Below are positions 49,922 to 54,781 of a DNA stretch of 64,000 nt, in pieces. The stretch is taken from contig LVBD01000049.1 of the NCBI GenBank assembly GCA_001604275.1, positions 1 to 64,000 on the forward strand. Direction: 5' to 3'. Source of the DNA: Spirochaetales bacterium Spiro_02. GTDB lineage: Bacteria; Spirochaetota; Spirochaetia; Sphaerochaetales; Sphaerochaetaceae. Each line of letters opens with the position of its first letter. The stretch's first letter is position 1. Position numbers and translations under genes: made by a program. The notes under the pieces were generated by a model that saw nothing but the letters and a program-made list of their open reading frames with translations, was not told the origin of the DNA and ran no database searches.

Positions 49922-50422
49922 ATGCTTCAGAAAGGAATTGAAAACGACGAGCTGTTCCGCGAATTCGCTCCGTTGCTTGCTCCGATGGGAATCACCATCG
50001 TGGATGTCGGCCGCACCGAGCATGGACGGACTAGCTCCGTAAGTATCATCATCAAGACGGATGACCATGAGGTGACGATCGACGATTGTGCGAAAGTCTA
50101 TAACCTGGTCTATCCCCGGCTTGAATTGAAGACCGGCGACAGGGATCTTCAGCTGGAGGTTTCGACGCCTGGCTTGCAGAGGAATCTGCACGACGTCTAT
50201 GAATTCGGACTGTTCGTCGGACGCAGGGTCCGTCTGTACGACCTGACGCGTTCCGCATGGGTTTCCGGCATCATCTCGCGGGTGGACGATTCGTCCGTAG
50301 CGCTGGACGATACGACCGTGGAGGACAGGACCGAGAACTTGGGAACCTGTGTGGTCCCATACGAACAGATACAGAAAGCCAAATTAGATTACAGATGGGA
50401 GGATGTTCCAGATGTCCAGTGA
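49922..50422 (+). CDS. rimP: Ribosome maturation factor RimP
   Basis: Assists assembly of the 30S subunit. Its 166 residues match the family: VVDVGRTEHGRTSSVSIIIKTDDHEVTIDDCAKVYNLV-type N-domain segments, RDLQLEVSTPGLQRNL and a C-terminal SH3-like domain. It is the first gene of the canonical rimP-nusA-infB-rbfA-truB order, with AGGATAGG before the ATG. Confidence 0.93.
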   Translation: MLQKGIENDELFREFAPLLAPMGITIVDVGRTEHGRTSSVSIIIKTDDHEVTIDDCAKVYNLVYPRLELKTGDRDLQLEVSTPGLQRNLHDVYEFGLFVGRRVRLYDLTRSAWVSGIISRVDDSSVALDDTTVEDRTENLGTCVVPYEQIQKAKLDYRWEDVPDVQ

Positions 50423-51878
50423 ATTAGGAGAAGCGATCCGCAGTATGGTGGCGGAGAAGGGTATATCCCAGGAACTCGTGATCAGTACCATAGAGGACAT
50501 TCTCCGTGCCGCATACAAGCGTAAGTTCGGAACCGATGAGAACGCGGTCATCCAGTTCAACGATGATTTCAGCGATGTGACGCTCAGCGCTCGCAAAACG
50601 ATCGTCGACGATGACGATTATTATCATGAAGTGACGGAAATTCCGATGAGCGATGCCGAAGAGCTGCACGAAGGATGCGAGATCGGCGATGAGCTGCTGG
50701 TTCCGATCAGTCTGAAGGATTTCGACCGCATCAGCGTACAGAGCGCCAAGCAGCGCGCCCATCAGTCGTTCCGAGATATTCAGAAGGATACGCTGTACAG
50801 CGAGTTCAAGGCCAAGGAAGGCCAGATGATCATCGGATACTACCAGCGGGAATCCAACGGGGATATCTTCGTCGATCTTGGTACTACGGAGGGGATCCTT
50901 CCTCGTCGAAACCAGAGTAGCAGAGAAGTCTATCGGAAGAACGATAAGATCAAATGCTATGTCGAGCGTGTCGAAAAGGCCGAGCGCGGTGTCCGTGTCG
51001 TCCTGTCGAGAACCAGTCCCGAGCTGGTCCGGCTACTCTTCGAGATGGAGGTTCCGGAAATCTACGACCACAGCATCGAAATTTTCAAGATCGTGCGAGA
51101 AGCCGGCTACAGGACCAAGATCGCCGTCTATTCGCATCGCGACGACATAGACCCCGTCGGTGCGTGCGTCGGTTTGAAAGGCATCAGGATTCAGACCATC
51201 ATGCGCGAGATCGAAGGTGAGAAGATCGATATACTGAAATACGATCCGAACCCGATGAACTTCATCAGGAATGCGTTGTCGCCCGCTGAGGTGAGGAACG
51301 TCATCATCACAGACAAGGATACGTTCCATGCGTTGGCAATCGTAGATGAGAACCAGTTGTCTCTGGCAATCGGCAAGCAGGGCTTGAACGTACGACTGGC
51401 GAACAAGCTGTGCGACTGGCTGATCGACGTTAAGACGGAAGCGCAGTTCGCTGAGATGGACATCGCTAACGACGCAAGGGAGCGTGCCGATGCGCTGTTC
51501 TCCGACGATGCGTATGGAGAGGCGGAAGCCGAGCCGCAGCAGATCGGGGCCGAGGATGATGAAATCCAGCTCTCTGACCTGCCGATCGACAAGGCGTTGC
51601 TTGACAAGCTCCATTTCCATGATATCTATACTGTCGAAGAATATGTGAATCTGCCGGAAGACGAAATCAAGGGGATGGGGGACATCTCTGAGGAAGAAAT
51701 CAAACAGTTGCACGATATCCTCGTCCAGTACGTCGATATCGTCGAGGAAGAGCACGTGGAGGAGCCCGACATACACTATACATGTCCTGAATGCGGGCAT
51801 CCTGTCACCCCTGACATGCAGACCTGCCCGAATTGTGGCGTGGGACTGAGTTTTGAGGAAGTCGATTACGAGGAGTAA
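50412..51878 (+). CDS. nusA: Transcription factor NusA with C-terminal zinc ribbon
   Basis: Elongation, pausing and antitermination factor that binds RNA polymerase. An N-terminal domain (to ~125) is followed by S1 (~135-200), KH1 and KH2 (~205-350; VGACVGLKGIRIQTI and LAIGKQGLNVRLA). An acidic helix-hairpin-helix-like region (~395-445) comes next. Residues ~457-480 then form CPECGH...CPNCG, a zinc-ribbon-type tail not part of the usual NusA. The start at 50412 is preferred because GGGAGG sits 9 bases upstream; an ATG at 50403 abuts the site. It overlaps rimP by 11 bases. Confidence 0.93.
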   Translation: MSSELGEAIRSMVAEKGISQELVISTIEDILRAAYKRKFGTDENAVIQFNDDFSDVTLSARKTIVDDDDYYHEVTEIPMSDAEELHEGCEIGDELLVPISLKDFDRISVQSAKQRAHQSFRDIQKDTLYSEFKAKEGQMIIGYYQRESNGDIFVDLGTTEGILPRRNQSSREVYRKNDKIKCYVERVEKAERGVRVVLSRTSPELVRLLFEMEVPEIYDHSIEIFKIVREAGYRTKIAVYSHRDDIDPVGACVGLKGIRIQTIMREIEGEKIDILKYDPNPMNFIRNALSPAEVRNVIITDKDTFHALAIVDENQLSLAIGKQGLNVRLANKLCDWLIDVKTEAQFAEMDIANDARERADALFSDDAYGEAEAEPQQIGAEDDEIQLSDLPIDKALLDKLHFHDIYTVEEYVNLPEDEIKGMGDISEEEIKQLHDILVQYVDIVEEEHVEEPDIHYTCPECGHPVTPDMQTCPNCGVGLSFEEVDYEE

Positions 51879-51910: not shown

Positions 51911-54781
51911 ATGACGGAAGATAATACGAAACCTAAAGCTACATTGATCAAACACGCGAAGGCGCAGGCTGCCTCCGCTCCGACCGCGGAGCAGAAAGAG
52001 GATCAGTTGCGAACCACCGAGAAGAAAAAAGTCGTAGTGGTCAAGAAGAAGGTCGTGGTCGTCAGACCTCAACCTCGGATGACTGAGCCCGCAGAGGCCC
52101 AGGTCTCCGTGACTTCTGCGCAGCAGGACTCTTCCGTCCCCGATTCCAACCCGAAGAACGAGACGTTGGATTCCAAGGTTCCTTCCGATTCTCCCAGAAC
52201 GGTAAAAAGTCCGTCGGGTGTTCCACGTCAGGGGGGGGCGACCCGCCCTGTCGCTAGAACGGCAGATCGTCCCAATTCTCCGCTCCATACGGGGCCGGTG
52301 GTGATTCGGCCGACCAATCTGCCTCCGGTTCCGAACCAGGGCCAGACGGCCGCCGCGCATGCTCAGTGGAAGAACAATCCGAATAATCGCGACAGTTCCA
52401 CTTCGTCTTCCAGCACCGGAGGAGCTCCCCGTGTTGCCGGCATGGTCGGCGGACGCCCTGCGCCCGGCACCAGGCCGCCATATCAGGGAGGGACCCGAAG
52501 CGGCGGCTATCAGGGCCGCGATGGCAACGGCTATCAAGGTGGAGCGCGTAGCGGCGGGTATCAGGGCCGTGATAACGGCGGATACCAAGGCGGGGCGCCA
52601 CGGAGCGGCTATCAAGGCCGCGACAACGGTGGCTACCAAGGAGGCGCGCCACGTAGCGGCGGCTATCAAGGTCGCGAAAACGGCGGGTATGGTCAGCGTA
52701 CCGGCGGCTACCAAGGACAGGGAGGATCCCGTCCCGGTGGATATCAGGGAAGACCGGGGCAGGGCGGACGTCCAGGATTCGGAAGTCAGGGGGGACGGCC
52801 GGGCTTCGGCGGACCCAGACCCGGCGGTAGACCCGGCGGCGGCAACGGTGGAGGGGAGACCCTCGATTCACTTGCCCAGAAATCGACGAAAAAGGTCTTC
52901 AAGAAAAAAGATCAGGCTTCCTATAAGAAGCGGGATGCGGAGCAAGAGAAGGAATTCCAGATCCAGCGTCGCAAGGAGCAGATGGCGAAGGCCAATCCGA
53001 TCCCGAAGTCGATCGATATCGTCGATGTGATCACGGTCGGGGATCTCGCGAAGAAGATGAATCTGAAAGCGAGCGAAATTATTTCCAAGCTGTTCAAGAT
53101 GGGGATGATGGTGACAATCAACCAGCAGATCGACAGCGACACCGCCACCATCATCGCATCGGAATACGGTTGCGAAGTCCATCTTGTGTCTCTGTATGAC
53201 GAAACGTTGATCGCCAGCGAGGAGGACCATCCTGAAGATATGGTTCCTCGCGCTCCGATCGTTACGATCATGGGGCATGTCGACCATGGCAAGACGAAGC
53301 TGCTTGACGCGATCCGTTCCACCAATGTCGTGGCTGGCGAATTCGGCGGTATCACGCAGCACATCGGTGCGTACAAAGTATCCATTCCGGACAAGGGGGA
53401 CGTCGTGTTCCTCGATACCCCGGGACATGCCGCATTTACCATGATGCGTGCACGTGGAGCGCAAGTCACCGATATCGTCGTTCTGGTGGTCGCCGCCAAC
53501 GACGGGGTCATGCCTCAGACGCTGGAGGCGATCGATCATGCACGTGCGGCGAAAGTGCCCATCATTGTTGCGATCAACAAGGTAGATCTGCCGGATGCGA
53601 ATCCTGAACGTGTCATGCAGCAGTTGTCCGACCACGGTTTGATGCCGGAGGAATGGGGCGGACAGACGCTCTATTGCCAGATTTCCGCATTGAAGAAGCA
53701 GGGTATCGACGAACTGCTCGACACGATCCTGCTGCAGGCGGAGATGCTGGAACTCCGGGCGAATCCGAATGTGCGTGCCGAAGGCAAGGTGTTGGAGTCC
53801 CGCATTGACCCGGGACGCGGCATCGTGGCCTCCGTTCTGATCGAACGCGGTACGCTCAGACAGGGCGACTATTATGTCGCCGGAATTTATCCGGGACGTG
53901 TGCGAGCTATGTTCGACGATCATGGAGAGCGGATTCCAGAGGCTGGGCCTTCTACTCCGGTCGAGATCATCGGACTTTCCGACATTCCGTCCGCGGGCGA
54001 CCCGTTCCAAGTGACTGAAGACGAACGTCAGGCCAGACAGGTTGGAGCCAAGCGCCAGGAGCTCGAACGTCTCGGAAGCGGCAAGAACGCCAAGAAGGTT
54101 ACGCTTGAGAACCTCAACCAGGCGTTGGCAAGCGGCGAAATCCAGGATTTCAACGTTGTCATCAAAGGCGATGTGCAGGGATCTGTCGAGGCGTTGCAAA
54201 ATTCGCTTGAGAAACTGTCGACCGATGAGATTCGGCTGAATGTCATCCGTGCCAGCGCGGGCGCCATCATCGAGAGCGATATTACGCTCGCCAGCGCTTC
54301 GAACGCATTGGTCATCGGATTCAACGTTCGTCCTACGCCGAAGGCACAGGCTCTTGCGGAGCAGGAAAAGGTGGATATCCGCAAGTACAACATCATTTAT
54401 GATGTCGTCGACGATATCCGGCTTGCGATGGAAGGCATGCTGACTCCCGATACGAAGGAAGTCGACATCGGTTCCGTCGAAGTCCGCGATACCTTCAAGG
54501 TTCCCAAGGTCGGCGTTATCGCTGGATGTTATGTCCTGGACGGCAAGGTCAAGCGGAATGCTTTGGTGCGCGTCATCCGCGACAGCATTCAGATCAACAA
54601 GAACCTGATCAAACTGAATTCGCTCAAGCGCTTTAAGGATGATGCGAAGGAAGTTGCCGCGGGATATGAATGCGGTATCGGGCTTGAGAATTTCCAGGAT
54701 ATCCAGGTAGGAGATATTCTGGAAGTCGTCGAAACGGTGGAAGTCGCCAAGAAGTTGGATTCGTCCCAGGTGAATATATGA
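51911..54781 (+). CDS. infB: Translation initiation factor IF-2
   Basis: GTPase that places initiator tRNA on the ribosome. The 956-residue protein has a variable N-terminus containing basic stretches and Gly/Arg/Tyr/Gln-rich repeats (~195-315). The IF2-N element follows, then the G domain with GHVDHGKT (~455-462), DTPGHA and NKVD, then domains II-IV. GGAAGG precedes the ATG. It is coupled to rbfA by an ATGA overlap. Confidence 0.96.
52500..52780 (+). repeat. Tandem Gly-Tyr-Gln-Gly repeats inside infB
   Basis: About four degenerate copies of a ~19-20-residue unit, [19 protein letters not shown]-like, are followed by further GYQG and GR-rich sequence. The DNA copies are diverged at third positions. 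The segment is predicted disordered and RNA-binding-like (RGG/YGG type). Confidence 0.85.

Follow-up and report, generated by a model that had tools for sequence, protein, structure and literature searches.

A zinc ribbon at the C-terminus of NusA is widespread in Spirochaetota

The NusA protein encoded in the window, i.e., the whole stretch of 64,000 nucleotides from Spirochaetales bacterium Spiro_02 that was analysed, ends in a predicted Cys4 zinc ribbon. NusAs with such a C-terminal ribbon are widespread in Spirochaetota and not peculiar to this genome; the ribbon was present in 121 of the 159 complete Spirochaetota NusAs of a non-random sample. The NusA ribbon is real, conserved and lineage-wide, and it is undescribed in the papers reached: the literature searched, mostly titles and abstract openings, does not describe a NusA with a zinc ribbon. 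It is a variant of a known protein and does not represent a new system.

The nusA gene and its C-terminal domains

The gene of NusA, a core elongation factor, usually stands in the order rimP-nusA-infB. In the window, nusA occupies 50403..51878 (+) as a stop-free ORF of 491 amino acids (aa), although the true start may be the in-frame ATG at 50412. It is the only nusA copy in the genome. Its product is identified as NusA by TIGR01953 (402.1 bits vs. a curated cut-off of 253.4) together with the NusA_N, S1 and KH domains, and PF08529 (NusA_N), PF00575 (S1), PF13184 (KH_5) and PF13248 (Zn_ribbon_3) were all above their Pfam cut-offs. The upstream neighbour is a rimP-like ORF (49922..50422, +), recognised by position and length in the order known from E. 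coli, and the downstream neighbour is infB (51911..54781, +), encoding IF2. Imperfect repeats in the N-terminal part of infB (52480-52760) code for a Gly/Tyr-rich (GGYQGR-like) sequence, a possible flexible partner region.

A single acidic-repeat-like helix-hairpin-helix (HhH) domain was located at aa 390-448 (51570..51746, +), with a match at E 2e-19 to an HhH profile built in this analysis and four helices within aa 397-443. The two-repeat model TIGR01954 (AR1-AR2) gave no match to the window NusA at E up to 1, in keeping with one HhH only, whereas the E. coli NusA used as a control scored 136.1 bits in two stretches. The structure look-up with the whole model, which barely probes the ribbon, returned NusA cores and, for the HhH (aa 385-443), the plastid RNA polymerase chain 8ras_A (Z 9.4, rmsd 1.4, 59 residues). 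Behind the HhH follow a disordered acidic linker (aa 448-455; 51744..51767, +), the zinc ribbon (aa 458-485; 51774..51857, +) and an acidic C-terminal end with the stop codon (51858..51878, +).

The cysteines of the ribbon are residues 461, 464, 475 and 478 (codons 51783-51836), spaced CxxC-x10-CxxC (CPEC-x10-CPNC), and the ribbon includes the conserved F484 and E485. The in-frame zinc-ribbon tail proposed in the initial annotation is borne out by the open frame and by PF13248, which matched aa 458-481 with 35.3 bits vs. a gathering cut-off of 27; its figure of about 13 residues between CPECGH and CPNCG must be corrected to eight (PVTPDMQT). In alignment A1, 82 of the 85 sequences matched PF13248 with an E-value of at most 0.01, and the chance level of CxxC-x8-18-CxxC was 15 in 200,000 random 130-residue sequences of NusA composition. 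In an AlphaFold2 model of the window NusA (85 sequences), pLDDT reached 93-95 in blocks covering aa 461-480 and stayed below 50 in the linker. As modelled, the ribbon is shown as a separately folding module behind a disordered acidic tether, and the predicted Cys4 site probably binds zinc. Ribbons of the PF13248, PF13240 and DZR types have the same CxxC-x10-CxxC arrangement; however, the NusA ribbon has a signature of its own (TxDMT...GLSFE and an acidic end) and is fixed to NusA. A frame error, which had been named as grounds for refutation, is not the case here, since the same kind of tail lies in the nusA frame in the window and in 120 further Spirochaetota NusAs, and the probability of a frame or assembly artefact is therefore negligible.

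Occurrence, conservation and loss of the ribbon

A NusA match was obtained in 383 of the 392 Spirochaetota genomes searched. The C-termini were read in a chosen, non-random subset (by genus and listed matches) and in named MAGs; the named nearest relatives are MAGs of Sphaerochaetaceae and other Spirochaetota. From 189 NusA translations 181 were kept, and after removal of duplicates there were 162 from Spirochaetota, of which 159 were complete; L043, L045 and L048, which end at a contig edge, are outside the 159. Those removed were duplicate genes (L050, L167, L170, L171 and L110), L111 (not NusA), L031 (last 300 residues equal to those of L006) and L032 (a tail shared with L006, identity beyond the tail not being shown), and no NusA was obtained for L051. 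The 17 complete NusAs of other phyla (Pseudomonadota, Bacillota, Fusobacteriota, Bacteroidota, Chlamydiota and Actinomycetota) came from E. coli and from nusA-holding records of a plasmid collection, with L185 and L188 set aside as incomplete as read. Several 'plasmid' records of this collection are chromosome-sized or hold nusA and are apparently misfiled (e.g., NZ_CP030101.1 and NZ_LT559118.1).

Within the class of the window, the ribbon was found in 16 of 21 sampled families, and the remaining five (f7, f11, f13, f16 and f21) gave only two-HhH NusAs. Outside this class 38 families were sampled; 16 of them had at least one ribbon row, one (f30) had two HhH, and 21 had neither. No ribbon occurred in the 17 complete NusAs of the six other phyla, a small and non-random sample. 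The statement that standard NusA lacks such a tail therefore agrees with these other phyla but not with Spirochaetota, in which the ribbon is the usual state; a tail common to many phyla, the second proposed ground for refutation, was not encountered in a sample of this size.

The invariance of the cysteines proves nothing, because they were used to select the rows. The ribbon is nevertheless better conserved than the neighbouring HhH, with mean top-residue fractions in alignment A1 of 0.74 against 0.43 (KH2, 0.77), and it has its own signature beyond the cysteines. Spacing of x10 was found in 116 of the 121 ribbons, and these have [YF] at -2, T at +8, D-M-T at +10 to +12, L at +21 and F at +23 (the latter in 113 of 116), followed by acidic residues. 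An aromatic residue lies no more than eight residues past the last Cys in 120 of the 121. Longer spacing between the Cys pairs was seen in L077, L100, L102, L104 and L166, with a motif length of 19, 22 or 23 instead of 18.

A few ribbon-less NusAs stand within otherwise ribbon-carrying families, namely L060 and L067 (genus g9), L009 (genus g8) and L056; the genomes of genus g9 are small, about 1.2 Mb. Such clean loss would fit a tail that is only a passive cap for stability or solubility, having no partner. However, the degree of conservation relative to the adjacent HhH and the signature outside the cysteines argue against this, and a passive cap is considered improbable. The Cys4 site itself is all-or-none, the only half-lost ribbon among the 38 ribbon-less NusAs being that of L083 (G028:C283), where a TGA stands at the fourth Cys codon and 32 further codons are open. 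Selenocysteine at this TGA was considered and rejected; as no SelB above the cut-off was found in the 83% complete draft genome G028, a mutation or a draft-genome error is likelier. An all-or-none site could also be expected of a redox or zinc switch, in which zinc loss by thiol oxidation or zinc shortage would alter NusA activity. Nothing in the data hints at sensing, however, and the site is kept in many families, probably of very different life styles, so that a switch is very unlikely.

Other sources and locations of the ribbon were also considered. A standalone ribbon acting in trans was searched for in seven ribbon-less genomes (G281, G318, G326, G203, G130, G008 and G246), and since the best matches (E 0.005) were inside ORFs of 904 and 934 aa, there is no clear NusA-type ribbon elsewhere in these genomes. 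Derivation of the ribbon by recent copying from a different protein encoded in the genome was rejected, with the next best match at E 0.04 and 33% identity. Plasmids and phages gave weak generic ribbons only (best E 0.02 for plasmids and 0.1 for phages, the latter among the matches listed), and plasmid or phage origin was likewise rejected; a search for viral carriers found none.

The ribbon and the second HhH domain

The ribbon stands where E. coli NusA and the NusAs of a related order have their second HhH (AR2). When HhH copies were counted by a profile of the HhH that follows KH2 (E <0.001), exactly one was present in all 121 ribbon NusAs, and the 38 ribbon-less Spirochaetota NusAs had two in 10 cases and one in 28. 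In the order of G203 (Spirochaetia), 46 genomes were searched, 41 gave matches and 30 loci were read (28 complete and 2 truncated). All 28 complete NusAs, some of which are also counted among the 159, had two HhH, no ribbon and no Cys after aa 350. Ribbon and second HhH were never found together in the sample (159 Spirochaetota NusAs and the G203 order). Since the ribbon NusAs all have one HhH and those of the G203 order two without a ribbon, the ribbon and the second HhH look like alternative C-terminal modules. The two-HhH NusAs of this order (f7, f11, f16, f21 and f60-f63) share the core, the first HhH and the acidic linkers with the window NusA and differ in the second HhH that replaces the ribbon. 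A duplicated HhH, in NusAs of 543-608 aa, was seen in L119, L123, L022, L028, L046 and L141 and in the order of G203. The second HhH is 28-45% identical to the first (eight Spirochaetota NusAs); the model of a two-HhH NusA was poor overall (pLDDT 60.6), with about 82-85 over the second HhH.

The NusA of E. coli, representing the gammaproteobacterial AR1-AR2 type, resembles that of the window in its NTD-S1-KH1-KH2 core, the HhH after KH2, the acidic C-terminal part and an extra module on a linker, but this module is a second HhH (AR2) instead of a zinc ribbon. Short NusAs, as in Bacillus (L173) and Thermotoga (chain 1hh2, 344 aa), share the core domains and have neither HhH nor ribbon. PMC7171158 restricts the possession of two AR domains to some gammaproteobacteria, E. 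coli included; if their second HhH counts as an AR domain, the two-HhH NusAs seen here in Neisseria and Spirochaetota extend this range. By TIGR01954, the two-HhH NusA L119 scored 16.6 bits vs. a cut-off of 48.15.

Mapping on a tree, as suggested in the initial annotation for C-terminal CxxC pairs, could be carried out with 179 NusAs. The ribbon label changed at least 12 times and the two-HhH label at least six times (the E. coli group counted too). The two-HhH rows of the window's class lie among ribbon rows, and outside the class L078 (two HhH) stands beside L104, one of the ribbons of longer spacing. A careful tree of 51 rows leaves the two-HhH rows unsettled, and a single clade of 18 two-HhH rows was not rejected (AU p 0.319). 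The modules have been exchanged at least once, perhaps on two or three occasions. The exclusivity of the two modules rests on few independent events, because the exchange in the class may be one event only. Moreover, 28 of the 38 ribbon-less NusAs carry neither module, and the role is therefore dispensable.

Possible function of the ribbon

It is quite possible, at a little less than an even chance, that the Cys4 zinc ribbon on the NusA C-terminus is a protein-docking module in the role of AR2. The ribbon would bind zinc and act at the AR2 position, offering the conserved Phe and acidic residues of its C-terminal edge to a partner in transcription, which could be the alpha CTD or another surface of RNA polymerase, NusG or IF2. 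Perhaps it also docks back on the KH domains, so that NusA would be held inactive off the polymerase. According to PMC7171158, E. coli AR2 has the alpha CTD, NusG-NTD, SuhB and lambda Q as binding partners and also masks KH1; all these contacts use a surface with W490/F491 at the extreme C-terminus. A WF pair stands at the C-terminal end of the E. coli, Legionella and Neisseria NusAs in the sample, and the spirochaete ribbon ends in a nearly invariant Phe with acidic residues behind it. The similarity favours a docking role. It fails for the two-HhH spirochaete NusAs, because their acidic end has no aromatic pair. In Borrelia burgdorferi, NusA was among the proteins co-purified with RNA polymerase, as reported in PMC7237435.

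The initial annotation had offered contact of the tail with RNA, ribosome or polymerase, which is plausible in general. Of these contacts, that with RNA has the least in its favour, since the net charge of the ribbon is -2 in the median (range -6 to +1) and the linker has a median of 49% Asp/Glu and a median of zero Lys/Arg. Although NusA itself binds RNA and nucleic acids are common targets of zinc ribbons, it is thus quite improbable that the ribbon adds to the RNA binding by S1-KH1-KH2. Contact with the ribosome or IF2, aiding transcription-translation coupling, is fairly unlikely as well. Ribosomal proteins often have zinc ribbons, infB directly adjoins nusA, and L32/L37e were among the weak matches of a PDB sequence search with the tail; however, these PDB matches are at chance level, and this gene order is also seen with ribbon-less NusAs. 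In E. coli, the C-terminal region of NusA is a binding site for domain I of IF2 (PMC12297416).

The docking role may be taken further. AR2 could have been functionally replaced in Spirochaetota by an unrelated fold, the zinc ribbon, which would recruit NusA to the polymerase and switch its RNA binding on or off, and one order would then have swapped the ribbon for a duplicated HhH; this extended scenario is doubtful. Were it true, a core transcription factor would accept unrelated folds as substitutes for one another at a single regulatory position. To our knowledge, C-terminal regulation of NusA is known mainly from AR1/AR2 of E. coli. If much of the phylum uses the ribbon, models of NusA autoinhibition and recruitment would not hold for spirochaetes, and the swap between ribbon and second HhH would be a natural experiment on what AR2-like modules must do.
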